Below, piece after piece: positions 21,522-52,222 of a stretch of DNA of 52,222 nt; the stretch's first letter is position 1, and each line of letters opens with the position of its first letter. The position numbers were made by a program, and so were the translations under genes. The stretch covers positions 1-52,222 of the forward strand of contig CAIRTK010000050.1 in assembly GCA_903881475.1 (NCBI GenBank). The letters are read 5' to 3'. The DNA comes from an uncultured Opitutia bacterium (GTDB taxonomy: Bacteria > Verrucomicrobiota > Verrucomicrobiia > Opitutales > Opitutaceae). The notes under the pieces were generated by a model, which saw nothing but the letters and a program-made list of their open reading frames with translations, was not told the origin of the DNA and searched no databases.

Positions 21522-22955
<1,434 letters not shown>

Positions 22956-31632: not shown

Positions 31633-32037
31633 ATGAACCCTCATTTCCGCCTTTTTCACCGCTTGCCGGCCTTGGGTACGGTTGCAATGAGCGCCACCCT
31701 CGCCTTCGTTACGCTCAGCCTGCATGCGCAGGAGAAAAAGAAGAATCCCTCGAGCAAAATCTACGTCGCCAGCATGGAGGGCCAATCCCAGATCAATCAG
31801 GGCGACAAGATCGCGGATCTGACCCAGAAGTCGGCCTATAACGCCGAAGGCATCTATGTCTGCCGTTTCAATCGCGCCTACCGTAAGCACATCCGCCTTT
31901 ATATGAAGGCGCTGCGCAACGGCAAAAACGAGGTGCTCGGCGTCGTGCTCAACGGCCTCTCGCCCCGCCGCATCGAGTATTACACGAACTACCGGTACTA
32001 CCGGAGCTACAAGAAATACTACGGCTCGCAGGGCTGA
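31633..32037 (+). CDS. Small exported Tyr-rich protein of unknown function
   Basis: The 134-residue protein has a signal peptide (hydrophobic core about residues 14-29; cleavage near SLHAQ). A Lys-rich start of the mature part (EKKKNPSSKIYVAS) and a middle with CRFNRAYRKHIRLYMKALRN follow. The tail IEYYTNYRYYRSYKKYYG contains ten Tyr in about 20 residues, alternating with Arg and Lys. Such tails can bind polysaccharide or form cross-links, but no family is recognised. It has its own AT-rich upstream region with a palindrome and is followed by a GC hairpin at 32089-32113. Confidence 0.65.
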   Translation: MNPHFRLFHRLPALGTVAMSATLAFVTLSLHAQEKKKNPSSKIYVASMEGQSQINQGDKIADLTQKSAYNAEGIYVCRFNRAYRKHIRLYMKALRNGKNEVLGVVLNGLSPRRIEYYTNYRYYRSYKKYYGSQG

Positions 32038-34651: not shown

Positions 34652-35907
34652 AGGCTCACCTCCAGTACGGCACCGCCGGCCTCGACCTCGATCTAACCGG
34701 AATCAACGCGACGGTCCTGGCCCCGCGTTTCCTCGATGGGCTGCCGGACGAGGCCGCCGGCTTCATCGCCGCCCTGCGCTCACCGCTCGGCACGCGCCCC
34801 CTGCGTGAGTTGATCGCGGCCACCGACCGCGTCGCCGTCGTCATTCCCGACATCACCCGCCCGCTGCCCAGCGACCGCCTGCTGCCCTGGCTGTTTGCCG
34901 AGCTCGCCCATGTGCCGGCCGGAAATTTCACCATTCTCATCGGCACCGGTTCCCACCGCGCCAACACGCCCGCCGAGCTTGACCGCATGCTTGGGCCCGC
35001 CGTCGCCCGCGGCTACCGTGTCGTCAATCACCAGTCGGCCGAGCCCGCGACCCTCGCCTTCGCCGGCCGCTCCGCCATGGGCTACGACGTGAGTATGGCC
35101 CGCGATTACATCGCGGCCGACCGCCGGATCATCCTGGGGTTCATCGAGCCGCATTTCATGGCGGGATTTTCGGGCGGTTATAAGGCCGTGTTCCCCGGCC
35201 TGGCCGCCCTCGATGCTATCATGCAGTATCATGCCGCGCCTGTCATCGCGGACCCGAGCAGCACCTGGGGCGAGCTCGAGGACAACCTCACGCAGCGCCA
35301 CATCCGCGCCGGCGGTTCCTTGCTACCCGTCGATTTCTGCATCAACGTCACGCTTAATGCGCGCCGGCAAATCACGCGCTATTTCTGCGGCGACACCCTC
35401 GCGGCCCACCGCGCGGGAAGCGCCTTCATCAAGGCCACCGCCATGGCAGCCTGCCCGCATGACTTCCCGGTCGTCGTCACCACCAACAGCGGCTTTCCCC
35501 TCGATCAGAGCCTCTACCAGACCGTCAAGGGCATGGCCGCCGCCGCTCGAATCGTGCGCCCCGGCGGGCTCATCCTCACGGCGGCCCGCTGTAACGACGG
35601 ATTTCCCGCCCATGGCAATTTCCGCACCATGGTCGAGGAATCGGCCTCGCCCCGCGAGCTCCTGGACCGCATCCTGACGGGCACGACCGTGCTCGATCAA
35701 TGGCAGGCCCAGCATTTCGCGATGGTGCTGCTCAAGGCGCGGGTCGCGCTCTACAGCGAACTTTCCGACGCCGATGTCCGCCGCGCCCACGTCTCCCCGG
35801 TGCACGACCTGCGCACCGCCCTCGATGCCGAACTCGACCGCATCGGCCGCGATGCCCCTGTCGCCATCCTCCCCGAGGGCCCGCTGACGATTCCGTATCT
35901 GGTGTAG
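34648..35907 (+). CDS. LarA-like nickel-dependent racemase/epimerase
   Basis: The product has 419 residues and shares LarA (DUF2088) motifs: VVIPDITRPLPSDRLL, LIGTGSHRANT with His103, and IEPHFMAGFSGGYKAVFPG with His169 and Lys179. The spacing of ten equals that of H174/K184 in Lactobacillus LarA, where these residues bind the nickel-pincer cofactor. Family members racemise lactate or epimerise other alpha-hydroxy acids. GTG 34648 overlaps the dus stop by 4 bp (GTGA). The cofactor genes larB, larC and larE are not in the window. The exact substrate is unknown. Confidence 0.88.
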   Translation: MKAHLQYGTAGLDLDLTGINATVLAPRFLDGLPDEAAGFIAALRSPLGTRPLRELIAATDRVAVVIPDITRPLPSDRLLPWLFAELAHVPAGNFTILIGTGSHRANTPAELDRMLGPAVARGYRVVNHQSAEPATLAFAGRSAMGYDVSMARDYIAADRRIILGFIEPHFMAGFSGGYKAVFPGLAALDAIMQYHAAPVIADPSSTWGELEDNLTQRHIRAGGSLLPVDFCINVTLNARRQITRYFCGDTLAAHRAGSAFIKATAMAACPHDFPVVVTTNSGFPLDQSLYQTVKGMAAAARIVRPGGLILTAARCNDGFPAHGNFRTMVEESASPRELLDRILTGTTVLDQWQAQHFAMVLLKARVALYSELSDADVRRAHVSPVHDLRTALDAELDRIGRDAPVAILPEGPLTIPYLV

Positions 35908-41381: not shown

Positions 41382-42236
41382 ATGCGTTTTTATAAATATC
41401 ACGCCCTCGGCAATGACTACATTGTCCTGAATCCCGCTGATTTCCCCGCCTGGAAGCCCGCGCCCACCGTCGACCAGATCCGCGTCGTCTGTCACCGCAA
41501 TTTCGGCGTCGGCTCCGACGGCATCCTCTGGGGCCCGCTGCCGTCCCGGTCGAGCGAGTTCGGCCTGCGCATCTTCAATCCCGACGGCTCCGAGGCCGAG
41601 AAATCCGGCAACGGGCTCCGGATTTTCTCCCGGTTTCTCCGGGACCAGGGCCTGGTGAAGGCCCCGGTCTTCACCATCGAGACCCCCGGGGGAAACGTGC
41701 GGACCGAGATCAAGGAGCACGGCCAGCTTCTCACCATCGACATGGGGTGCGTGAGCTTTGACAGCGCGGAGATCCCGGTCCCCGGCGCCCCGCGCGAAGT
41801 CATTGCTGAGACGATCCGGATCCAGGACCGCGATTTTACCTTCAGCGCCGCGACCATCGGCAATCCGCACTGCGTGATTGTCCTGCCGGAAATCTCCGAG
41901 GCCCTCGCCCGCCGCTACGGCCCCGACCTCGAGGTCCATCCGAATTTTCCGCGCAAGACCAACGTCCAGTTCCTGAAGGTCATCGACCGCAATAATGTCC
42001 GGATCGAGATCTGGGAGCGTGGCGCCGGCTACACCCTCGCTTCGGGCAGCAGCTCCAGCGCGTCCGCCGCCGTCGCCCACCGCCTCGGCCTGGTGGACCG
42101 CAATGTCACGGTCCATATGCCTGGCGGAAAAATCGGCATTGAAATCGGCGACGGCTACTCGATCCGTATGACCGGCACCGTGAACAAGGTCGCGGAGGGT
42201 ACGATGTATCCGGAATTATTCCTGGTCAAAGTATAG
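41382..42236 (+). CDS. dapF: Diaminopimelate epimerase homologue with Ser in place of both catalytic Cys
   Basis: The 284-residue protein has the two-lobed DapF fold with MRFYKYHALGNDYIV, HRNFGVGSDGILW, IFNPDGSEAE, ATIGNPHCVI and TNVQFLKV. DapF normally uses two Cys, in MCGNG and TLACGTG. Here the first motif reads EKSGNGLRIF (Ser75) and the second TLASGSSSSA (Ser221), so both bases are Ser. The overall fold and substrate-site residues are otherwise preserved. It may still epimerise LL-DAP to meso-DAP by a modified mechanism, or act on another amino acid. ATG 41382 begins the conserved N-terminus. Confidence 0.85.
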   Translation: MRFYKYHALGNDYIVLNPADFPAWKPAPTVDQIRVVCHRNFGVGSDGILWGPLPSRSSEFGLRIFNPDGSEAEKSGNGLRIFSRFLRDQGLVKAPVFTIETPGGNVRTEIKEHGQLLTIDMGCVSFDSAEIPVPGAPREVIAETIRIQDRDFTFSAATIGNPHCVIVLPEISEALARRYGPDLEVHPNFPRKTNVQFLKVIDRNNVRIEIWERGAGYTLASGSSSSASAAVAHRLGLVDRNVTVHMPGGKIGIEIGDGYSIRMTGTVNKVAEGTMYPELFLVKV

Positions 42237-42307
42237 GCCGCCCATCCCGGTCCGCGCCTTCCCTTCTCCGGGTTTCTTTCTCGCTTATCCCGCGCCCGCG
42301 GCGCGTG

Positions 42308-43045
42308 TCACCGGTCGGCATACCAATAGGCCCAGACCATCTTGCGCGCGGCGCCGCGGGCGAAGCACAGCTTGAACGGCACACCGAGCATGATCCGGAA
42401 ATAGTGCCAGTCGCCGTGACGGTCGAACTTACGCGTGGACGTCATTGCCCGCGCCGTCGGCAGCCGCCGGAACCGCCCGCCGTGTTTCCGTCCATGCCGC
42501 TTTAGGCGCCACATGAAATCCACGTCCTCCGCCACCAGCATCTGCTCCCGGTAGCCGCCCACCGCGGCAAAATCTCCGCGCCGGCAGAACACCACCCCGG
42601 TGTCGACGCCCAGCAGCCGCGTCGCCGGCACCATCACCAGCCAAGTAGCCGCGATGCCCGCCGACATCCGCTCCATCCAGACTCCCGAGGCACCCACCGC
42701 GCAGCGCCCCGTCCGCATGACCTGCTCGATCTCGTTGAACGTCTCGGGATGCAAAATCGAATCGGCGTCGATGAAGCACAGGATTTCGCCGCGCGCCGCC
42801 CCTGCCGCGCCGTTGCGCGCCGCGGCAATCGCCCGCTTCGCCACGTCCACCACCAGGCAGCCCCGCGCCCGCGCAATCTCCGCCGTCGCATCCGTCGAGG
42901 CATTGTTGCCCACGATCACCTCGATCGCCTGCGGATCGTCCCCATGCCGCGCGCGCGCCACGTCGATGCTGTCCAGCAGCCGCGGCAGCAGCCGGGCCTC
43001 ATTGTAGGCTGGTATGATGACGGAAAAGAGCGGGAAAGTCGGCAC
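42308..43045 (-). CDS. Family 2 glycosyltransferase
   Basis: The product has 245 residues and a GT-A fold: SVIIPAYNEARLLPRLLDSI, the nucleotide-binding VGNNASTDATAEIA, the DxD-type metal motif CFIDADSILHPE, GVDTGVVFCRRGDF and the acceptor-side AEDVDFMWRLKRHG. It probably transfers a sugar from a nucleotide donor; the product is unknown. No membrane segment is obvious. GTG 43045 is preferred: an in-frame start 14 codons upstream would read into a purine-rich repeat. Confidence 0.88.
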   Translation of the reverse strand: MPTFPLFSVIIPAYNEARLLPRLLDSIDVARARHGDDPQAIEVIVGNNASTDATAEIARARGCLVVDVAKRAIAAARNGAAGAARGEILCFIDADSILHPETFNEIEQVMRTGRCAVGASGVWMERMSAGIAATWLVMVPATRLLGVDTGVVFCRRGDFAAVGGYREQMLVAEDVDFMWRLKRHGRKHGGRFRRLPTARAMTSTRKFDRHGDWHYFRIMLGVPFKLCFARGAARKMVWAYWYADR

Positions 43046-43057
43046 GGGGAGCGTGCC

Positions 43058-43117
43058 GAGGAGAAGGGAGCAGGAGGCAGGGAGCAAGCAAGACGCAGGG
43101 CGGGATTCCCTGCTCCC
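43058..43117. repeat. Purine/pyrimidine-armed repeat, copy 1
   Basis: GGGAGCAGG (43066-43074), within a longer purine run starting GAGGAGAAGGG, pairs with CCTGCTCCC (43109-43117). The sequence matches the arms of the repeats at 49046-49190 and 50477-50592. It lies just upstream of the glycosyltransferase start. Confidence 0.6.
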
Positions 43118-43138
43118 GCACTAGCGCGCCCACGCGCG

Positions 43139-43750
43139 TCAGTACTTCACCGAGCATCCATAGGGCTGCGTCGCAGCCTTCTCCACCGGCTTGCCCGCTT
43201 TCAGCGATGCCAGCGCCGCGGTCACATAGTTCGTGGCCCTGGCGATATCCTCCACCTTAGCCGAGCGGATGCTGTCAATCGCGCCATCGTAAACCAGCGT
43301 GCCCTCCGCGGTGATGATGAACAGGTGCGGGGTGGTCTTCGCGCTGTACAGGCGCCCGACCTTTCCGTCCTGATCTCGGAAATAGGCCGTCGGCGCCGCC
43401 CCCATTTTCAACGCCCATGCGGCCACTTGCGCCGGCGTAAAGTCGCCTTCCGCCCCCGGCCGGCCCGAATTGATCGAAAGCCAGATCACGCCGTCTGCTG
43501 TCGCCGCCTTCTGCAGGTTCGGGATGTTGCCGCTGCCATAGTGCTTCTGCACGAACGGGCACTCGGGATTCGTCCATTCCAGCACCACCGTCTTACCGCG
43601 GTAGTCCGACAGCTTGTGGACCCGGCCGGTGATGTCCGTGAGGGTAAAATCCGGCGCCGGCTGCCTGATGGCGACCGCCGCATTTGACGAACCGACCAAG
43701 CCAACCGCCAGCGCGGCGGCGAGAACGAGGAAACGAAGGGATGATTTCAT
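43139..43750 (-). CDS. Exported AhpC/TSA-type redoxin
   Basis: The 203-residue protein has a signal peptide (SLRFLVLAAALAVGLVGSSN). The redoxin domain starts IRQPAPDFTLTDITGRVHKL and has VVLEWTNPECPFVQKHYGSG, where the single Cys of PECPF is the candidate peroxidatic or thiol-active residue. It is not a CxxC motif. A second Cys lies near the C-terminus (PYGCSVKY). It is probably a periplasmic thiol peroxidase or redox protein. ATG 43750 gives the signal peptide. Confidence 0.85.
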   Translation of the reverse strand: MKSSLRFLVLAAALAVGLVGSSNAAVAIRQPAPDFTLTDITGRVHKLSDYRGKTVVLEWTNPECPFVQKHYGSGNIPNLQKAATADGVIWLSINSGRPGAEGDFTPAQVAAWALKMGAAPTAYFRDQDGKVGRLYSAKTTPHLFIITAEGTLVYDGAIDSIRSAKVEDIARATNYVTAALASLKAGKPVEKAATQPYGCSVKY

Positions 43751-43840
43751 GGGTGAGAGTCTTCTGTGAGACGCCCGAACAGTGGCCAAGGATTCATTCT
43801 TCGCCAGTCTCCAGCGCAGTATTGCAAGGACCCGATCCAC

Positions 43841-43920
43841 TTTAACCACGGATATCACGGATGCGGAATCCTGCGATCGGGTGGTTTTATCCGGATTGAT
43901 CCGTGTAATCCGCGGTTAAA
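43841..43920. repeat. Imperfect inverted repeat (ACCACGGAT/ATCCGYGGT type)
   Basis: The 22-base left arm (43841-43862; TTTAACCACGGAT then ATCACGGAT) and the right arm (43899-43920; ATCCGTGTAATCC then GCGGTTAAA) match at 19 of 22 positions as inverted copies, with a 36-base centre. It lies in the 277-base gap between the divergent redoxin and TPR-membrane genes. This kind of sequence recurs as a small dispersed palindrome in several bacterial phyla, as far as I recall. Confidence 0.75.
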
Positions 43921-44027
43921 AGCCTGCTCTCCGTTTCCTCCGTCCTTCCCATCGTCGCCGCCTCGCGATTCAATGTCTCCTTCCCGGTTGGTTTCGGTTT
44001 GCTGCCTCCATCGCCCCACGTAGGTTC

Positions 44028-45533
44028 ATGTTCGTGACTGGCTGGTTCGCCGATTTTTTCCGTCTTGTCTGGGGGCTGTCCTATTGGAACACACGCAAGT
44101 CATGGTTCCGCCTGCGGCGCGGACACGCGGCCTGCCCCTGCCAGAGCCCCAGTGATTCCGGCCGGCCACTCGAGACGCACTGCGATGCCGTCGTCCACTG
44201 GGCCAAAGCCCGGCGCTTCCAGCGCGTGTGCCCCTTGCTCGTCGAAACGCCTGGCGGCTGGCGGTGCTCCGCCCACACCGCCGATGTCCGCCCTTTCTGG
44301 GGCCGGGCCTTCGCCTACTATGGTGGCGCACTCGCCACATTGTACCTGATCGGAGCGATCGCCGCCTTCATCTTCCTGCGGATCGTCGGCTATCCCGTAA
44401 ACATCATCCAGGTCACCTGGCCGCCGTCCTGGCACCGTGTGGGTGAGGCCCGTGGCTGGTTCTTCCTCGATAAGGCGAGAAAAGCCTTCGCCTCCAACCG
44501 CACCGGCGAGGCCCTCCTCTACCTTTCCAATTCTTACGAGTTCGATCCCTCCAACTACGCCGCCGGCCTGACCCTCGCCAAGGCCCTCCAGTCCGGCCAG
44601 CCGGTGCCCTCCAACCGCATTTACGAGCGCCTGTTCCGCGAACATCCCGGCCAGCGCGAGACCACTGCCGAGGAATGGTTCCGGGCGCTGGTCGCCCGCG
44701 GGGACTTCACCGCGATTCAGTCCCTTGCACGCGACCGGATCCTGGACGGCACGCCCCATGCCTCCGTCTGGATGCGCGCCCTCGTCTTCGCCACGCGCCA
44801 ATCCCGGCGCGCGGATGAACTCCGCGACCTGCGCGATTCGCCCGTTCCCGCCGCGGCCGTCTGGCGGCCGCTGATCGAGACCGAGCTGCTGTTTCTCGGC
44901 GGGCAGGATGCCGGGGCGCGGGCCCGGCTGGACGGGACGGACTGGCGCCGGCTGCCGCCCTACGGGGTATACTATCAGGTCAGCCAGCTGATTGCCCTGG
45001 GCGATGTCTTCGCCGCGCTCGATCAGCTCGGCGTTGGCGCCGGACAGCTCGATTCCGAAACCCGCGTTGCGCTGCAGCTCTCCGCCTATGCCCGGCAGGG
45101 TGCCCGCCGGCCCCTCGATCAGCAGGTTGACCAGCTGCTGGGTTCCAAGCTTTCCCTCCCCGTCGTCAAGATCCTCTCCGCCCAGCTGATCCGGCAGCCC
45201 GATCCGGTCATCCTCGACCGGCTCTATGCCCGGCTGCAGCGGGAGCCCATCCCGTTCACCACCGACAGCGCCGGGATTTATTTCTCCCTCCTCTGTGCCG
45301 CGGGCGTGCAGGGCGACTGGATCAAGTTTCAGGACATCGGCCAGGTCATCAGCAACGGCGCCGGCCTGACGCCGCCCTTGTATGCCGCCGTCGAGGCCTT
45401 CTTTCGCGGCGAGTCGACCTCCAGCCGGGTCGTCTCCGTGCTGCCCGCGTTGCCCTTGCCCATCGAGGTCACGTATGCCCTGATCGAGCGCTACCCCGGC
45501 CCCCCCCCTGGCCCGCTGAAATCGAGCCCATGA
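44028..45533 (+). CDS. Membrane protein with Cys-rich N-terminus and TPR-like C-terminal region
   Basis: The product has 501 residues. The N-terminal 90 hold five Cys (36, 38, 52, 68, 80; ACPCQSPSDSG, THCDAVVHW, RVCPLL, WRCSAH) that could bind zinc. One strong membrane segment (about 97-120, ALATLYLIGAIAAFIFLRIV) is followed by a roughly 370-residue helical region with TPR character (FLDKARKAFASNRTGEALLY, LSNSYEFDPSNYAAGLTLAK). It is translationally coupled to the exosortase (ATGA overlap at 45530), which suggests a role in exosortase-dependent export or surface assembly. No known family is assigned. Confidence 0.75.
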   Translation: MFVTGWFADFFRLVWGLSYWNTRKSWFRLRRGHAACPCQSPSDSGRPLETHCDAVVHWAKARRFQRVCPLLVETPGGWRCSAHTADVRPFWGRAFAYYGGALATLYLIGAIAAFIFLRIVGYPVNIIQVTWPPSWHRVGEARGWFFLDKARKAFASNRTGEALLYLSNSYEFDPSNYAAGLTLAKALQSGQPVPSNRIYERLFREHPGQRETTAEEWFRALVARGDFTAIQSLARDRILDGTPHASVWMRALVFATRQSRRADELRDLRDSPVPAAAVWRPLIETELLFLGGQDAGARARLDGTDWRRLPPYGVYYQVSQLIALGDVFAALDQLGVGAGQLDSETRVALQLSAYARQGARRPLDQQVDQLLGSKLSLPVVKILSAQLIRQPDPVILDRLYARLQREPIPFTTDSAGIYFSLLCAAGVQGDWIKFQDIGQVISNGAGLTPPLYAAVEAFFRGESTSSRVVSVLPALPLPIEVTYALIERYPGPPPGPLKSSP

Positions 45534-47137
45534 GCAACCCGCCTACCCTGACTCCCTCCGCGAAACTCGCGCCGGCGGTGAAGCTGAGCCTCGGGTTGCT
45601 CGCGGGATTGACGCTCACGCTGGTCCTGGTGCTCTGGCCGCACTGGCGGCAAAACCCCGATCTCTCGCACGGCTACTTCATGCCGGTGATCTTCCTGGTG
45701 CTCCTGTACGAGAGCCGCTCGGGCACGCCGCGGTTCCTGCCGGCCGGAGCCGCCACCACTGCGGTCCTCGCGGTCTTGCTCGTCGCCGGCCTGCTCTCCC
45801 TCGTCGCGAGCGGACTTTATGCAGCCTCCCTCGGCTGGTCGCATGATCTCGTCGCCTTCACGCTTACCGTCTCCCTTGTCCTGTTGCTCGGCGCCGGCCT
45901 GGTCGTGCTGTCCTCCGCCCCGGTCCGCTGGGTGCCGTGCAACTGGAGCGCGGTGGTCGCCATCGGACTGTGGCTCCTTTGTGCGCCGATTCCACCCGGC
46001 ACCTATTCGCACCTGACCCTCAGTCTCCAGCTCATGGTTTCGGAAAATGCTCTCCGCGCCCTCCACCTGCTCGGCGTCGCCGCCGTCCGCCAGGGCAACA
46101 TCATCGAGCTCGCCACCACGAACGTCGGCATCGAGGAGGCGTGCAGCGGGGTCCGCAGCCTGGTTTCCTGCGTGTTCGCCGGCCTGTTTTTTTCCGCCAC
46201 CCTCGTGCGCCGGCCGTGGGCGCGCGCCCTCATCATCGTGCTTTCCGCCCCGCTTGCACTGGTGATGAATTTCCTGCGCTCGCTCACCCTCACCCTGCTC
46301 GCCAACTCCGGCGTCAGCATCGCGGGGGCCTGGCATGATTTCACCGGCTTCGCCGTACTCGGGCTCACCGCCGCCATCCTCGCCGGCCTGGCGCTCCTGC
46401 TGGAGCGAAAATCCGGCCTGACGCAGCCCGTACCGGCCCGCCCGGGCCCGGCTCAAGCCACCCTTCGGCGCGTGTGGATGCCCCTCTATCTGGCCGGGGT
46501 CCTGACCGCGGCCGCCGCCCTCGGCCTCTTCTTCCTTGTCGCCACCCGCCCCTCGCCCCGGCCCGCCGTCCCGGTGCCCAATCTTTTCGCGGTGCTGCCG
46601 GCCAAGGCAGCGGGCTGGCATGTCGAGACCAGCGCCGACCTCTACCAGTTCAGCGACACCTTGCAGACCGATCATCTGGCCCAGCGCACCTATTCGCGGA
46701 TGACCGCGCTGGGACCGGAACTCGTCACCCTCTACCTCGCCTACTGGCGCCCGGGGCAGGCATCCGTGAGCCTTGTCGCCGCGCATACCCCCGACGCCTG
46801 CTGGCCCGGCGCCGGCTGGGAACCCCTCGCCGTGACCACCCCCCGGGTGCAACTGAGGCTGGATGACCGGGTCCTCGCCGAGGGTGAATACCGGGCCTTC
46901 AAAAGCAGCCTGCTGCCGCAGAATGTCTGGTTCTGGCATATCTACGATGGCCACGTGATCAGCCACCAGAACCCCAATTCCCCGGCCGAGCTGCTCCGGC
47001 TTGCCCTCCGCTATGGCTTTCGCCGCGCCGGCGACCAGCTTTTCGTCCGGATTTCCAGCAATCGCAGCTGGGAAAATATCCGGCACGAACCGTTCATCGA
47101 ATCATTCTTTGCGCACCTTCAGCCGCTCGGACTCTGA
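45530..47137 (+). CDS. Exosortase with C-terminal EpsI-like domain
   Basis: The product has 535 residues. The first ~320 form a multi-helix exosortase/archaeosortase core with catalytic Cys205 (GIEEACSGVRSL), Arg250 (MNFLRSLTL) and His269 (AWHDFTGF). The C-terminal part (about 345-535) is EpsI-like: VETSADLYQFSDTLQTDHLA, VTLYLAYWRPGQASVSL, HTPDACWPGAGWE. Exosortases process C-terminal sorting signals such as PEP-CTERM on exported proteins. No PEP-CTERM protein is in the window. The ATG overlaps the upstream membrane protein stop by 4 bp. Confidence 0.93.
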   Translation: MSNPPTLTPSAKLAPAVKLSLGLLAGLTLTLVLVLWPHWRQNPDLSHGYFMPVIFLVLLYESRSGTPRFLPAGAATTAVLAVLLVAGLLSLVASGLYAASLGWSHDLVAFTLTVSLVLLLGAGLVVLSSAPVRWVPCNWSAVVAIGLWLLCAPIPPGTYSHLTLSLQLMVSENALRALHLLGVAAVRQGNIIELATTNVGIEEACSGVRSLVSCVFAGLFFSATLVRRPWARALIIVLSAPLALVMNFLRSLTLTLLANSGVSIAGAWHDFTGFAVLGLTAAILAGLALLLERKSGLTQPVPARPGPAQATLRRVWMPLYLAGVLTAAAALGLFFLVATRPSPRPAVPVPNLFAVLPAKAAGWHVETSADLYQFSDTLQTDHLAQRTYSRMTALGPELVTLYLAYWRPGQASVSLVAAHTPDACWPGAGWEPLAVTTPRVQLRLDDRVLAEGEYRAFKSSLLPQNVWFWHIYDGHVISHQNPNSPAELLRLALRYGFRRAGDQLFVRISSNRSWENIRHEPFIESFFAHLQPLGL

Positions 47138-47140
47138 CCC

Positions 47141-47233
47141 ATGCCGCTGCCTCTCACCGCGGTCGAACGCCGCATCCTTGCCGTCCTCGGCGCCGTCATT
47201 GTGCTCGGCCTTGTCGGGCTGGCCGTGCTTTAG
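47141..47233 (+). CDS. 30-residue transmembrane peptide after the exosortase
   Basis: ATG 47141, three bases after the exosortase stop, opens a 30-codon frame that ends with TAG at 47231-47233. The peptide has a short charged start (LTAVERRIL) and an uninterrupted hydrophobic helix (AVLGAVIVLGLVGLAVL). Position and composition suggest a real small membrane protein of the exosortase operon, but it might also be the surviving 5' end of a decayed gene. Confidence 0.5.
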   Translation: MPLPLTAVERRILAVLGAVIVLGLVGLAVL

Positions 47234-47445
47234 GCCGCATCCGGTCCGCCTGCCGCTCCGCGCCAATTTTATAAGCCCGGGCCGGCGAATTTCCCCGCCG
47301 ACCCGCGCAATCCGGTAGTGACAAGATTCCGCCCATCGCATCCTCTCCTCTCCGCCGCGCGTATGATGTTTAAATGTCCGTGCTCTCCTCATGCTGGTCC
47401 GCTGACTTCGCCGTCTTTCCGGCGTGGCGCGGCTCCCGTGCCCGC
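47234..47445. other. Intergenic region upstream of the ECF sigma gene
   Basis: These 212 bases contain a moderately AT-rich patch (CCAATTTTATAAGC near 47265) and a second one (GTATGATGTTTAAATG near 47360). Either could hold a promoter for the sigma/anti-sigma pair. No repeat or RNA gene is evident. Confidence 0.3.
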
Positions 47446-48054
47446 ATGAATCCGGCCGCTGACTTTGATCCCTCCGCGGCCAACGCGGAGCGCGCCCGGG
47501 TGGACGCCGATCTCCTCCGCCGCATCGCCCGTGACGACCGCGAGGCGTTCGCCCAGCTCTACGACCGTTTCTCCCGTCCGCTTTATGCGACCGCCCTGCG
47601 GGTCCTGAACAACCCGGCCGAGGCCGAGGACATCGTGCAGGATGTCTTCCTCGCGCTTTGGGAAAAGGCCGCCTCGTTCGAGTCCACCCGCGGCTCGGCC
47701 TTCGCCTGGGCCGTCACGCTCACCCGCAACCGCGCCATTGACCGCATCCGCATGCGGAACCGGCGGGCCGAACTGCTCAGCCAGACCACCGCGGAGGACG
47801 CCGGCACCCAGCCTTCCGACGCCGGCCCGGACTCCGCCACCCGGCTTCTGTTCAAGGAACAGACCGGGGCCGTCCGGGCGGCCGTCGCCGCGCTGCCGCC
47901 GGAGCAGCAACGCGCGGTCGAGCTCGCCTTCTTCAGCGGGCTCACCCAGCAGGAAATTGCCGCGCTGCTCCAGGAGCCCCTCGGCACCGTCAAGGCCCGC
48001 ATCCGCCGCGGCCTGCTCAAGCTCCGCGAAATCCTTGGAGGCCGCCATGATTGA
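47446..48054 (+). CDS. ECF-type RNA polymerase sigma factor
   Basis: A product of about 202 residues with sigma-70 region 2 (LYDRFSRPLYATALRVL, NNPAEAEDIVQDVFLALWEK) and region 4 (QQRAVELAFFSGLTQQEIAA, then GTVKARIRRGLLKLRE). Regions 1 and 3 are absent, as in ECF sigmas. ATG 47446 is the likely start; an earlier in-frame start adds a non-conserved 24 residues. Its stop overlaps the anti-sigma gene by 8 bases, so the pair is coexpressed. Confidence 0.93.
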   Translation: MNPAADFDPSAANAERARVDADLLRRIARDDREAFAQLYDRFSRPLYATALRVLNNPAEAEDIVQDVFLALWEKAASFESTRGSAFAWAVTLTRNRAIDRIRMRNRRAELLSQTTAEDAGTQPSDAGPDSATRLLFKEQTGAVRAAVAALPPEQQRAVELAFFSGLTQQEIAALLQEPLGTVKARIRRGLLKLREILGGRHD

Positions 48055-49021
48055 CGAACTCCACGAGGAACTCGCCTCGCTTTACGTCCTTGGCCTGCTC
48101 GAGGGCCCCGAACTTGCCGATTTCCAAGCCGGACTCGCCCGTGATCCCGCCCTGCAGACGCTCGTGCGCGAACTGAACGAGACGACCTGCCGGCTCGCTT
48201 ACGCGGCGCCCGCCGCGGCGCCCTCTCCGGCCCTGAAGGCCCGTCTGCTCGACCGGATCGACACGGCCGCCCGCTGGCGCGCCGAGCGCAGGGTCGTCCC
48301 CTTCACCGTGCCCGTATGGCTGCCCTGGGCCGCTGCCGCCTGCCTCGCCGTCTCGTGCGCATGGCTCGGCCAGCTGTACCTGGTCAGCCGTTCCGAGAAT
48401 GCCCTCCTGCGCGATCAGCAGACCCTCGCCGAATTCGAACTCAGCAGCGCCCGCAACCAGCTGAAGGCCGAGCGCCTCATCGCCGCGCACGAGGTGGCCA
48501 GCGCCACCGGCCAGCTCGCTACGCTCGAGCAGAACCTCAGGCGCGCCCGGCAGGAGGCCGACGACGCCAACCTCCAGCTCACCAGCGCACAGAAGCTCAT
48601 TGCCGCGCGCGACCTGCAGGTCGCCCAGAACAACGAGCGGCTCGCCGAGCTGGAGGCCAAGTCCGCGCACGACGCCGATCTCGCCAACTTCAAGATCTCC
48701 ACGCTCGCCTCCCTTCTCGGCAATTCGCCCCAAGCCCTTGCCGTCGCCGTCTGGAATCCCGCCCGCCAGGAGGGCGTCCTCCGCGTCGAGAAACTCCCCG
48801 CCCTCGCCGCCGACAAGGATTACCAGCTCTGGCTCGTCGATCCCCAGTATCCGATTCCCGTCGACGGCGGTGTCTTCACCGTCGACCCCGCCACCGGCGA
48901 GGCCCGGATCTCGTTCAAGGCCGACAAGCCGATCAAGGCTGTCGCCAAGTTCGCCGTCAGCCTCGAACGCAAGGGCGGCGTCCCCAAGGCTGAGGGCCCG
49001 ATGGTGCTGCTGAGCCAGTAG
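48047..49021 (+). CDS. RskA-like membrane anti-sigma factor
   Basis: A product of about 324 residues. The cytoplasmic N-terminus (ELASLYVLGLLEGPELADFQ) resembles the RskA anti-sigma domain. One membrane helix lies at about 88-112 (VWLPWAAAACLAVSCAWLG), then a long coiled coil (about 116-215) and a C-terminal RskA domain (LAVAVWNPARQEGVLRVEKL, then QLWLVDPQYPIPVDGGVF). The extended periplasmic coiled coil is longer than in typical RskA proteins. It should hold the adjacent ECF sigma inactive until an envelope signal is received. Confidence 0.88.
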   Translation: MIDELHEELASLYVLGLLEGPELADFQAGLARDPALQTLVRELNETTCRLAYAAPAAAPSPALKARLLDRIDTAARWRAERRVVPFTVPVWLPWAAAACLAVSCAWLGQLYLVSRSENALLRDQQTLAEFELSSARNQLKAERLIAAHEVASATGQLATLEQNLRRARQEADDANLQLTSAQKLIAARDLQVAQNNERLAELEAKSAHDADLANFKISTLASLLGNSPQALAVAVWNPARQEGVLRVEKLPALAADKDYQLWLVDPQYPIPVDGGVFTVDPATGEARISFKADKPIKAVAKFAVSLERKGGVPKAEGPMVLLSQ

Positions 49022-49045
49022 TCCGCGCGTTGCGTGGACGGAGCT

Positions 49046-49190
49046 GGGAGAAAGGAGCAGGGTCCGGAAACAAAGCGCGCTCCAGTGAAAGCTTGAGCCT
49101 TCCTCCGAAATGCCCTGCCCCCTTCTCCTTGCGCCCGCCTTCCGCGATCCGCCTGTCCCTTCTCCTCTCTTCTTGCGCCCTTCTCCTAAG
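49046..49190. repeat. Purine/pyrimidine-armed repeat, copy 2
   Basis: GGAGAAAGGAGCAGGG (49047-49062) matches CCCTGCCCCCTTCTCC (49113-49128) as an inverted copy at 14 of 16 positions. A pyrimidine-rich tail follows to about 49190, containing CCGCGATCCGCCTG (49142-49155) that also occurs, with few changes, in copy 3. The repeat fills most of the 238-base gap before fabV. Confidence 0.7.
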
Positions 49191-49259
49191 TACAGCGCGC
49201 CAGGCGCACTGCACTTGAAACTTGCCCCGCGTTCCATCCCCGGGGAACCTAGCGGTTGC

Positions 49260-50444
49260 ATGATCATCAAACCCAAAATTCGCGGCTTCATCTGCGTCAC
49301 CGCCCACCCCGACGGTTGCGCCGCTCATGTCCAGGAATGGATCAAGTACGTCAAGTCCAAGGGCCCCATCGCCGGACCGAAGAAGGTCTTGGTGATCGGT
49401 TCCTCCATGGGCTATGGCCTCGCTTCCCGGGTAACCGCCGCTTTCGGCTCCGGCGCCGCCACCATCGGCGTCTTTTTTGAGCGTCCTTCCGAGGAAGGAC
49501 GTCCGGCCACGCCCGGCTGGTATAATTCCATCGCCTTCACCCAGGCCGCCCGCGCCGCCGGCCTCTACGCCAAGAATGTCATGGGTGACGCCTTCTCCGA
49601 CGACATCAAGGCCCAGGTCATCGACGCCATCAAGGCCGACCTCGGCCAGGTCGACCTTGTGGTCTATTCCCTCGCCTCCCCCCGCCGCACGCATCCCAAA
49701 ACCGGCGTCGTCCACAAGAACTGCATCAAGCCCATCGGCGCCCCTTACACCAACAAGACCGTCGACACCGACAAGGGCATCGTCAGCGAGGTCACCATCG
49801 AGCCCGCCACCGAGGCTGAAATCTCCGATGTCGTCGCCGTCATGGGCGGCGAAGACTGGGAGCTCTGGATCCAGGCGCTCTCCGACGCCAAGGTGCTCGC
49901 CCCCGGCGCCCAATCCGTCGCCTATTCCTACATCGGGCCCGAGGTCACGTGGGCCATCTACAAGAACGGCACCATCGGTCACGCCAAGGACGATCTCGAG
50001 CGCGCCGCCAAGGCCATCGATGCGAAGCTCAAGGCCAACGGCAATGGCCGCGCCTTCATCTCCGTCAACAAGGCGCTCGTCACCCAGTCGAGTTCGGCCA
50101 TCCCGGTTGTCCCCCTCTACATTTCCATCCTCTACAAGCTCATGAAGGCGCGGGGTACCCATGAGGGCTGCATCGAGCAGATGCAGCGGCTCTTCGCGAC
50201 GCAGCTCTACAGCGGACACGCCACAAAGTTTGACGAGGCCGGCCGCGTCCGCGTGGACGACCTCGAGATGATCCCCGAGGTGCAAGATGCTGTCCGCCAA
50301 ATCTGGCCCGGCGTTACCACCGAGAATCTCGAGGCCCAGACCGACATCGCCGGTTACCGCAACGAATTCCTGAAGCTCTTCGGCTTCGGCCTTTCCGGTG
50401 TAAACTACGAGGCGGAAGTCGAGCCGCACGTGCCGATGATCTGA
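49260..50444 (+). CDS. fabV: FabV-type trans-2-enoyl-ACP/CoA reductase
   Basis: The 394-residue protein has [20 protein letters not shown], the NAD-binding [38 protein letters not shown] and the Y-X8-K catalytic pair Tyr234 and Lys243 ([10 protein letters not shown]). This is the length and architecture of FabV, which reduces enoyl-ACP with NADH in fatty-acid elongation and is naturally triclosan-tolerant. ATG 49260 begins the conserved N-terminus. Purine/pyrimidine repeats flank the gene on both sides. Confidence 0.97.
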
Positions 50445-50476
50445 GCGCCGCCCTTGGATCATTGCAGGAACAGGCT

Positions 50477-50592
50477 GGAGAAAGGAGCAGGGAGATAGGT
50501 TCGCACAATAGAGCCTTTCCTCTCCGCGCTTTCGCCCCTCCACGTCTCCGCGATCTGCCTGCCACTTCTCCTTTCTCCCTGCTCCCTTCTCC
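50477..50592. repeat. Purine/pyrimidine-armed repeat, copy 3
   Basis: GGAGAAAGGAGCAGGG (50477-50492) matches CCCTGCTCCCTTCTCC (50577-50592) as an inverted copy at 15 of 16 positions, enclosing an 84-base centre that contains CCGCGATCTGCCTG (50548-50561). It fills the gap between fabV and dtd and ends 8 bases before the dtd start codon. Confidence 0.75.
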
Positions 50593-50600
50593 ACCACGCC

Positions 50601-51116
50601 ATGCGGGCCGTCATTCAACGAGTGAGCTCCGCCCGCGTCACCGTGGGTGCCGAAACCGTCGGCGAGATCGGTCCCGGGCTTGTCGTCCTGCTCGGCATCC
50701 AGCAGGGCGACACGGAGGATGACGCGCGCTGGCTCGCCGCGAAGATCGTGTCCCTGCGTCTCTTCGAGGACGCCGAAGGAAAAATGAACCTCGCCCTCTC
50801 CGATCTCTGTTCCTCCTCCATCCTGCCCCCTGCTCCTTACCTCCTGCCCCTCCCTTCTCCCGCCACCAGCACGCCCTGCGTGCTGGTGGTGAGCCAGTTC
50901 ACCCTGATCGCCAGTACGCGCAAGGGCGCCCGGCCCTCGTTCAATGACGCAGCCCGGCCCGAAACCGCGATTCCGCTCTACGAGTCCTTTCTCCGTCACG
51001 CGGAGGCCGCCTTGGGCCGGCCCGTGGCCACCGGCCGCTTTGGCGCCATGATGGAGGTCTCCCTCGTCAACCACGGCCCCGTCACGCTGATGATCGACTC
51101 CCGCCTGCGCGAGTAG
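50601..51116 (+). CDS. dtd: D-aminoacyl-tRNA deacylase with an extra loop
   Basis: The 171-residue protein has [15 protein letters not shown], the catalytic SQFTL motif (SQxxF/T, residues 98-102) and the NxGPxT motif NHGPVT (157-162) at the dimer interface. It hydrolyses D-amino acids from tRNA. Typical members have about 145-150 residues. Here roughly 21 extra residues (about 69-93, [19 protein letters not shown]) sit between KMNL and VLVVSQF, where E. coli has a short turn. The insertion is encoded by pyrimidine-rich DNA like the nearby repeats and ends in a perfect 11-bp hairpin (50864-50888). Both catalytic motifs are intact, so it may be functional. Confidence 0.9.
50811..50860. repeat. 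Repeat-like insertion inside dtd
   Basis: This pyrimidine-rich stretch (CCTGCCCCCTGCTCC, later CCTGCCCCTCCCTTCTCC) resembles the right arm of copies 2 and 3 and encodes the extra Pro/Ser/Leu-rich loop of the deacylase. It is in frame. Confidence 0.55.
50864..50888. repeat. Perfect hairpin inside dtd
   Basis: CACCAGCACGC (50864-50874) pairs with GCGTGCTGGTG (50878-50888) around a 3-base loop, at the 3' edge of the extra loop-coding segment. Such a stable stem inside a coding region is unusual and marks the boundary of the inserted sequence. Confidence 0.7.
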
Positions 51117-51125
51117 CGGCGGCAC

Positions 51126-51158
51126 AAAAAAGCCGGCGGGGCGCGGGGCCCGGCCGGC
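51126..51158 (-). terminator. Intrinsic terminator of the TPR protein gene
   Basis: On the minus strand GCCGGC (51158-51153) pairs with GCCGGC (51137-51132) around a GC-rich centre that can itself pair, followed by six T (51131-51126). It lies 26 bases after the minus-strand stop at 51184 and close to the dtd stop. Confidence 0.8.
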
Positions 51159-51183
51159 AGGGTATCAGCGAAATTTCCCGTGC

Positions 51184-52050
51184 TCAGTGCGGCATGCGGT
51201 CCAGCTCGCTTCGGGCCTGGCGGAAATTGAGGGCGGACGGCGGCTCGTTCACGAACGACTCGTTGAACGCCTTGGACGCCCCGGCTTTGTCGCCCTTCAG
51301 GAGGCGGCCGACGCCGACAAAATAGTAGGCCTCAGAGCGCTCGTGCGCCTTTTCGGAGTCATCTGTCACATCGAACCCGGCGCGGCTCAGCAACTCGGCC
51401 TCGGGCAGCTTGCCGTTGACGTAGGCCGCGAGCGAACGCAGCCAGCGGCTCTTCCAGCTCGAGGCGGACTCGAACGTCTCCGTGCCGGCCCGGCCGCCAC
51501 GGTTGTAGTCGATCGCCCGGAACAGCGTCGCATACGCGATCTGCGTGGGATCCCCGCCAGTCTTCAGCTCGATGGTCTTGCTGTAGGCCGCCACGGCGTC
51601 CTCGAGGTTGTTCTGCGCGTCCTTGGCCAGCGCGAGGTGGAAATATGTCGCCCCATCCTCCGGCTTCAGTTCGGTCGCCTTCGTCAGGTCCTCGACCGCA
51701 CCGTCAATGTTGCCCTGGAGGTACTTCGCCTTGCCGCGCTGAAGGTAGGCCGCGGCATCGTTCGGACGGAACCGGATCACCTGGGTGAAATCGTTGATGG
51801 CCCCGTCGAAGTTGCCCTGTGCGCTCTCCGCGAGGCCGCGGTTGGCATAGGCGGAGATGTCCGCGGGCTTCAGTTCGATCACCTTGGTGAAGTCGGCGAT
51901 CGCACCATCGTAATTGCCTTCGGTCATCTTGCTCATGCCGTCGGCAGTATACTCTTCTGCCGTCTGGGCAGACAGCGCGGGCGTGGCCGCGAGGACAAAG
52001 GCGCCGGTTGCGACGGCACCCAACAGGCGTAACAGGGAGTTGAGTTTCAT
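51184..52050 (-). CDS. Exported TPR-repeat protein
   Basis: The 288-residue protein has a signal peptide (LLRLLGAVATGAFVLAATPA, cleavage near ALSAQ). Four to five clear TPR units follow (EGNYDGAIADFTKVIELKPA, QGNFDGAINDFTQVIRFRPN, QGNIDGAVEDLTKATELKPE, QNNLEDAVAAYSKTIELK). A more divergent helical C-terminus comes last. It is a periplasmic interaction scaffold; the partner is unknown. It is followed by an intrinsic terminator. Confidence 0.9.
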   Translation of the reverse strand: MKLNSLLRLLGAVATGAFVLAATPALSAQTAEEYTADGMSKMTEGNYDGAIADFTKVIELKPADISAYANRGLAESAQGNFDGAINDFTQVIRFRPNDAAAYLQRGKAKYLQGNIDGAVEDLTKATELKPEDGATYFHLALAKDAQNNLEDAVAAYSKTIELKTGGDPTQIAYATLFRAIDYNRGGRAGTETFESASSWKSRWLRSLAAYVNGKLPEAELLSRAGFDVTDDSEKAHERSEAYYFVGVGRLLKGDKAGASKAFNESFVNEPPSALNFRQARSELDRMPH

Positions 52051-52222
52051 GTTGATTCTGGATGTCCCGGACGCAGGGCGGCCGGTGGGTTGGGAATAAG
52101 TTGAACCGATCAGACGGCAAAATGCACGTTCAGTTTCAGAAAATGTTGCCGGCCAACTCCAAGCCCCGGCGCCCTACCTCATTGCGGGTAATTGGATCCG
52201 CAGCCTCATCGACCCGGCCTCA
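52051..52222. other. Right-edge region upstream of the TPR gene; no confident gene
   Basis: The last 172 bases contain the upstream region of the TPR gene (AT-rich patch around 52090-52140). From about 52135 both strands have short open frames reaching the edge: plus reads ...APYLIAGNWIRSLIDPAS, and minus reads ...ADPITRNEVGRRGLELAGNI with a stop near 52138. The minus frame looks slightly more like a protein C-terminus, but neither can be assigned. Confidence 0.3.

Follow-up and report, generated by a model that had tools for sequence, protein, structure and literature searches.

Heptameric G-rich repeats have been described in Xanthomonas (GGGNATC) and Nostoc (GGGGA(C/T)T) by Rehm et al. 2015 (PMC4692102), and these are the closest known systems to the one described here. 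In the parts of that study available to us, several bacterial groups show an excess of heptamer repeats, tract lengths change between relatives, the function of the repeats is open, and their origin is a hypothesis; a polymerase-contact hypothesis is cited for the unit length. Their 7-nt units are G-rich, degenerate, dispersed and mostly intergenic, with the G-rich strand directed away from the ORF, and convergent inverted pairs are reported (70 cases in Xcc, 75 in Xac). The tracts analysed here resemble them in these respects, but differ in that GGGAGNA is accompanied by several other words, that tracts lie in frame within loops of conserved enzymes, that outer hairpins match the host sequence, and that related species carry different words at one site. 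A term search of the main text of PMC4692102 finds 'hairpin' once and 'amino acid' nowhere. The TAACTGA repeats of Beggiatoaceae (PMC4679880) are likewise dispersed heptamer direct repeats, albeit of another word and intergenic, and the portion of that account available to us makes no mention of hairpins.

Dispersed small repeats lying in frame within metabolic genes are also known as Rickettsia palindromic elements (PMC10969869, PMC3733652, as far as these texts were available), although those fall into some ten families with a length of about 150 bp, whereas here recurrence is confined to the 7-nt word and the palindrome seems to derive from the host. GTAG-tagged REPs, to judge from the accessible parts of PMC3733652, occur in intergenic space and in genes, as the heptad tracts do too; O. 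terrae (Verrucomicrobia) is highly enriched in them, and different REPs stand at about the same recB site in two Xanthomonas species. Unlike in these REPs, no GTAG tag or common stem was noticed at the heptad tracts themselves, beside which GTAG-led palindromes do occur. Perfect stems from reverse-complement copying are known from template-switch hairpins (PMC8794818), and inverted repeats tolerated in coding genes from the mitochondria of Nematomorpha (PMC6649704); in the available portions of these papers, neither is tied to heptad tracts or insertions, as they are here. A literature search over titles and abstract openings, covering few subscription papers, returned nothing on heptad tracts with host-copied hairpins or on heptads in dtd. 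New here are hairpins at the outer ends of heptad tracts that match the host sequence, and different words at the same site; both point to how heptamer repeats arise and make their origin testable.

The window, meaning the whole stretch of DNA that was analysed, comprises 52,222 nt of the genome of an uncultured Opitutia bacterium (G000), and its relevant features are collected in Table 1. Near its end a trans-2-enoyl-CoA reductase gene is followed by dtd and by a gene that looks TPR-like by eye. In profile searches the dtd product matches Pfam Tyr_Deacylase (E=9.8e-54) and NCBIfam TIGR00256 (E=1.1e-48), both matches being split into two stretches of which the better begins at residue 94, past the loop. 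The TIGR00256 score of 165.4 bits, against a curated cut-off of 101.5, places the product in the DTD family, and the gene encodes an intact D-aminoacyl-tRNA deacylase. Its two best named relatives are labelled Opitutaceae. SQFTL and GPVT, which we take to be the catalytic motifs of DTD, are present and invariant across a 40-row alignment, in agreement with an earlier note on this DNA, made from its letters alone, that both motifs are intact. The same note had counted about 21 extra residues, and this was right: 30 residues separate KMN from VLVVSQF, compared with nine in short-loop relatives.

Table 1. Coordinates of dtd, its loop and the heptad elements in the window.
Feature	Position	Strand	Basis or remark
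Third heptad tract, GGGAGCA words	43057–43086	+	template scan
Second inverted-arm element, same family, upstream of the reductase gene	49040–49186		outer hairpins weak (scores 4 and 6)
G-rich heptad arm, 31 bases past the trans-2-enoyl-CoA reductase stop codon	50476–50499	+	heptad template, arm pairing
Body between the upstream arms, partly conserved in G009	50500–50569		G000–G009 comparison
C-rich arm (read on +), ending 7 bases before the dtd ATG	50570–50593	-	heptad template, arm pairing
dtd, D-aminoacyl-tRNA deacylase, 171 aa, with 30-aa loop (residues 64–93)	50601–51116	+	ORF without internal stop, profile matches
dtd loop codons, 30 residues (9 codons in short-loop relatives)	50790–50879	+	comparison of dtd loops
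Putative decayed heptad tract core, G-rich strand minus	50794–50855	-	template score 26; word-like sequence extends to about 50870 by eye
dtd hairpin, 12-bp perfect stem, 3-nt loop, adjoining the tract	50863–50889 (arms 50863–50874 and 50878–50889)		right arm in C-V-L-V-V codons, left arm its inverted copy

An AlphaFold model of the dtd product has a mean pLDDT of 91.2, falling to 58 for residues 71–80 and 56 for residues 81–90 between flanking blocks at 92 and 95; on this model the loop looks permissive to extra residues, as the earlier note had supposed. Comparison with the sister genome G009 gives a dN/dS of 0.16 outside the loop and of 1.4 within it, the latter from just 30 codons at 50% nucleotide identity, and outside the loop the gene is, by this comparison, under purifying selection. 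We note that dtd has no match at E≤0.001 in four of the 12 genomes of the same genus (G001, G007, G008 and G010), two of which are listed as 100% complete; in these four it may be dispensable or replaced.

The loop DNA is 82% pyrimidine, the pyrimidine richness having been remarked on before. Its best score of 26 against a GGGAGNA template is on the minus strand (P=0.008, 0.0055 and 0.003 with codon, dinucleotide and mononucleotide shuffles, respectively). A plain lag-7 test gave 10/14 (P=0.33), which is not significant, and one other lag also reached 10; the G000 loop, if a tract, is therefore a worn one. The G009 loop has the same length, CCCTGCTCCCTTCTCCATTCTCCCTTCTCCC, with 13/14 at lag 7 (P=0.001) and a template P of 0.0005, the floor of 2000 shuffles, so that clear periodicity is found in G009 and not in G000. 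The tract probably dates back at least to the common ancestor of the G000 species and G009. We favour, as a somewhat probable reading, that the G000 insert is a worn tract of the GGGAGNA heptad dispersed in its genome, lying on the non-coding strand, tolerated in the loop, and grown by slippage together with fold-back template switching.

Words of the same kind build the element just upstream of dtd, whose two arms (24 nt each) are inverted and 92% complementary. The earlier note had the repeat arms ending 8 bases upstream of the gene; the arms are there, although the distance to the ATG is 7. Positions 50470–50600 fold better than shuffles (z=-3.9), the element at 49036–49184 folds no better than shuffles (z=-0.3), and an Rfam search of positions 42000–52222 of the window gave no match at gathering score. 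Elsewhere in the window, about 195 bases each at 31681–31878 and 34902–35095 are present in G000 and missing in G009; both look coding by eye.

The loop region has 38 matches in its own genome at E≤10, mostly weak, and the upstream element has 57 at E≤1, the query being counted in each case. The loop is thus not unique in its genome, which the earlier note had named as a finding that would speak against a repeat. Scanned with the template, 812,899 bases (roughly one quarter of the genome, in part picked because of earlier matches there) yielded 66 tracts scoring at least 14, of which 53 score at least 16, in 36 elements. In the first 15 sources there were 15 tracts against two in the shuffle at a threshold of 14, and 30 against 23 at a threshold of 12. 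Counted by lag in a genome sample, there are 14 arrays at lag 7 and none to two for any of the remaining lags between 4 and 15, apart from lag 14, a harmonic, with seven; the period is therefore truly seven. Both this enrichment of tandem 7-nt units over other unit lengths and the dispersed, mostly intergenic occurrence with convergent pairs are as expected of heptameric G-rich SSRs. Runs on both strands are found in 10 of the 36 elements, and in all 10 the G-rich run comes first, a convergent arrangement; at least five of the 36 lie inside recognisable genes. The longest array, of about 14 GGGAGCA units, is at G000:C17:46795, and its G3N4 spacing only suggests G-quadruplex formation.

The recurring unit in the tract contexts inspected is the 7-nt word only: we noticed no unit of fixed length or sequence, no shared ends and no consensus of about 150 bp such as defines a Rickettsia family. 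No GTAG tag or shared stem was noticed by eye at heptad tracts, the stems varying by site. Set against the MITE pattern of terminal inverted repeats with a target-site duplication, the arms are inverted, but the compared sites showed neither a clean empty site nor a legible duplication; likewise no target duplication was recognised on reading the contexts. The earlier note had proposed a mobile or expanding small repeat, and its word is indeed common to the upstream arms and many genome sites. 'Expanding' is the better fit of the two, since we saw no copy-to-copy consensus beyond the 7-nt word, no target duplication was recognised, and the hairpin resembles inverted local codons.

This closing hairpin had been described as a perfect 11-bp hairpin; it is perfect, with a slightly longer stem of 12 bp. 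Folded as single-stranded DNA, positions 50790–50895 give z=-6.9. The hairpin looks as if local codons had been copied in inverted orientation, and it does not look like part of a dispersed repeat; similar structures recur at other tracts. Taking the outer end of a tract as the 5' end of its G-rich strand, a hairpin is often found there in which the outer arm belongs to the host and the inner arm repeats it in inverted orientation; the host arms include dtd codons (VLVV), hrpA codons (LGAI; LTP) and a gene end with its stop codon. Hairpins scoring at least 8 stand at the outer ends of 15 of 53 tracts (11 scoring at least 10), at the inner ends of none of the 53, and at 0.65% of random positions, it being understood that some tracts come from the same elements and so are not all independent, and that random positions were taken regardless of gene distance. 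In 20-nt bins round the outer end, 15 of the 53 fall at -10 to +9; moving outward the counts are 2, 2, 3, 2, 0, 1 and 1, and moving inward 0, 0, 1, 2, 3, 4 and 6. We tentatively read the inward rise to 6/53 at +130 to +149 as the outer hairpin of the partner arm. An outer hairpin at this score is absent in 38 of the 53 tracts, and none is evident by eye in the contexts of the CTCTCAR tracts of two other genera (g26 and g18, see below); fold-back would therefore not be a necessary step. With a strict lag detector on G000 and G009 samples, a hairpin scoring at least 8 was found at three of 30 ends of lag-7 arrays and at none of 42 ends at lags 5, 6, 8, 10, 11 and 13. We therefore rejected the idea that hairpins are a trait of all short-period arrays; they go chiefly with GGGAGNA tracts and the related GGGAGWT tracts.

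Where the host sequence differs between relatives, the inner arm may differ with it. At the left side of the hrpA insert the stem arms are GCTCGGCGCGA/TCGCGCCGAGC in G000 (11 bp) and GCTGGGGGC/GCCCCCAGC in G001 (9 bp); the host codons differ, and the inner arm follows the host arm. The dtd stems are 12 bp in G000 and 9 bp in G009, again with different inner arms. At hrpA-left (G000 versus G001) and at dtd (G000 versus G009) the inner arm repeats the local host allele in inverted form, and this is weaker or absent at 49040 and 49186 of the window. Three hrpA genes free of inserts have hairpin scores of at most 5 on either side. At eight boundaries compared between G000 and G009, which were not blindly chosen, both genomes score at least 7 in four: dtd (12/9), the ABC gene (7/9), L110:11287 (14/8) and L121:1819 (14/9), the last two being mismatched in G009. 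The other four are L110:10927 (10/6), L121:1729 (6/6), 49040 (4/5) and 49186 (6/6). Random 45-nt windows score at least 7 in 3.5% of cases and at least 6 in 11%.

The helicase gene hrpA is the best compared of the other coding hosts. Nine of 15 genomes have a short loop. Two-sided GGGAGNA elements occupy one loop in G000 and G001, G007 has other heptads there (GGTCATG and CCCAGCA types), G009 (L234) has a GTAG-led palindrome pair, and G003 and G008 have longer loops with no clear heptads. No clean empty site was seen in hrpA, since the native loop is replaced and not merely interrupted. As single-stranded DNA the whole hrpA insert forms a long heptad stem flanked by a hairpin on either side (z=-8.8). 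In-frame heptads of G000 are also found in an exosortase gene (two tracts), in a sulfatase gene and, if the start is taken at the upstream ATG, at the N-terminus of an ABC-transporter ATPase; as with the Rickettsia elements, insertions in conserved genes are thus in frame in dtd, hrpA, exosortase and sulfatase, the ABC case being conditional on its start. At L112:17036–17108, CTGCGAA- and CTTCTCC-type heptads lie adjacent and in frame within an exosortase gene.

By eye, the same sites in relatives carry different words. At 43057 of the window, the GGGAGCA words of G000 correspond to GGATACC/GGATTGC words in G009, which surround a GTAG-led palindrome. At L121:701–794 there are four different arm words (in G000, in G009, in G001/G007 and in G008), each inverted round a body, and none in G003. 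At L121:1729–1819 one word is common to G000 and G009 and another is found in G001/G007, with hairpins on both sides. Slippage alone leaves different words at one site unexplained. The G009 orthologue of L121:701–794 (L298) has inverted arms of nonamer-like CACGAAGGG words, which suggests that 9-nt words share the inverted-arm layout of the heptads. In contig C36 of G009, at the equivalents of window positions 21526 and 33020, there are palindromes led by GTAG or GTGG that are absent in G000 at the same places, and one GTAG/GTGG-led palindrome of G009 that is absent in G000 is coding, inside hrpA.

Loops of dtd were compared more widely. Broad retrieval gave 80 loci, the majority labelled as phyla other than Verrucomicrobiota; 39 of the 80, roughly half of which are labelled Verrucomicrobiota, were aligned, and every one of these has a short loop. 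A further survey of 51 loci was non-random, the first 31 being the best matches of the long-loop query and the last 20 chosen mostly for long open frames; it comprised 30 short loops (9–10 aa), 19 long loops (at least 15 aa) and two broken genes (G034, frame-shifted; G131, half a gene). Five of the 19 long loops (L032, L071, L074, L075 and L083) have lag-7 P≤0.012, uncorrected over 19 tests. The loop of G151, in genus g26, consists of near-perfect CTCTCAR heptads (CTCTCAACTCTCAGCTCTCAGCTCTCAACTCTCAGCTCTCAG; P=0.001), that of G036 in the same genus is a diverged form (P=0.001), and that of G116, in a third genus (g18), is of the CTCTCAR type (P=0.012); two other g18 genomes, G028 and G161, have 9-residue loops. 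Two to four perfect matches to a CTCTCAR triplet pattern are found in each of G151, G116, G036 and G177, and a search of G000, G009, G099 and G076 gave none. The loop of G034, from a fourth genus (g24), contains CCCCAAA-type heptads followed by a 7-bp hairpin (L323, G034:C155:25550–26300), with the dtd halves in different frames, a split for which assembly error is not excluded.

The earlier note had held that its reading would fail if the close relatives in other genera all had the same loop with unrelated DNA. Half of this is found: long loops with unrelated DNA exist, but genomes from three of these genera have heptads of another word there. Since these loops are again heptads, albeit of other words, they favour a loop that was filled repeatedly. 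With a short loop as the ancestral state, there would probably have been several independent fillings. The loop is a natural case in which different lineages lengthen one enzyme loop with unrelated repeat DNA.

In the mechanism that we propose, tracts would grow and change word by 7-nt polymerase slippage, and a 3' end would at times fold back and copy its own host strand by template switching, leaving an outer hairpin whose inner arm is inverted host codons. Fold-back template switching can also renew hairpins, according to the accessible part of PMC8794818. In intergenic space the same events, acting from both sides, would give inverted arms round a body. Within genes only in-frame products in permissive loops would survive, presumably as neutral changes; selection against frame shifts and misfolding would explain why the coding survivors sit in loops. 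As to the dtd loop, it could instead be an ordinary fast-evolving loop of low complexity, its codons for a Pro/Ser/Leu-rich linker being pyrimidine-rich and its likeness to repeats a matter of composition. Loop length does vary from 9 to 37 aa in the family, long loops without clear heptads exist (G003, G004, G123 and G199, for example), and the lag-7 result for G000 itself fits; yet composition would not account for the template values (P=0.003–0.008 in the window, 0.0005 in G009), the near-perfect heptads in the G009 and G151 loops, the 12-bp hairpin, or the same words in an arm 7 bases upstream, and we regard this account as unlikely. In-frame insertion of a mobile small element such as a MITE, a REP/BIME or a Rickettsia-like palindrome seems quite unlikely. 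The dispersed copies, inverted arms and in-frame coding hosts are indeed reminiscent of such elements, G000 has two Y1_Tnp genes (RAYT transposase domain), and G009 has a pair of GTAG-led palindromes in its hrpA loop. However, we saw no unit of fixed length or sequence and, short of a dedicated search, no target duplication; the site-specific, host-matching hairpins and the words that change between related species at one site make a fixed mobile unit inadequate as an explanation.

It seems quite improbable, too, that the elements are end-capping scars at breaks, in which 3' ends snapped back, G-rich heptads were added and the ends were joined, leaving on either side a G-rich strand directed 3' away from the host. 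This would account for hairpins at outer and not inner ends, for the convergence of all 10 two-strand elements, and for the hrpA layout of host, inverted copy, G-rich run, body, C-rich run, inverted copy and host, with its three hairpins; the Xanthomonas repeats, as presented in the available text of PMC4692102, also form convergent pairs with G-rich strands pointing away from ORFs. Against it, the words are degenerate and not cleanly templated, most tracts have no hairpin, and no heptad-adding enzyme was identified. A reverse transcriptase as the maker of the repeats was rejected, a profile search of G000 with RVT_1 (PF00078) giving no match, which argues against a telomerase-like route and not against a polymerase route. 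In a broader and unlikely version of this idea, tracts and host-copied hairpins would be scars of general bacterial end processing at breaks or stalled forks, made by snap-back, self-copying, G-rich extension and sealing on one or both sides; the word would change between species, the same sites would be rewritten with the architecture kept, and the dtd and hrpA loops would be surviving in-frame scars. Selection might instead keep hairpins and arms as RNA or DNA structures (terminators, mRNA stability), with the words as by-products. Hairpins are retained despite sequence change at some orthologous boundaries, many elements lie between genes, and the element upstream of dtd folds well, but similar hairpins inside dtd, hrpA and the ABC gene make no sense as terminators; with the missing Rfam match and the poor fold at 49036–49184, we think this very unlikely. 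Slippage with fold-back template switching remains our preferred reading of the dtd insert.

Two minor observations concern dtd in other genomes. In G131 (L331, G131:C76:101466–102260) the C-terminal half of dtd is in frame after an apparent enoyl reductase end, and a second dtd-like match lies at 95066 of the same contig. The dtd of L136 has 22 residues inserted after residue 14, in another hairpin loop; L087, likewise of 172 aa with a short 9-residue loop, probably has the same insertion.
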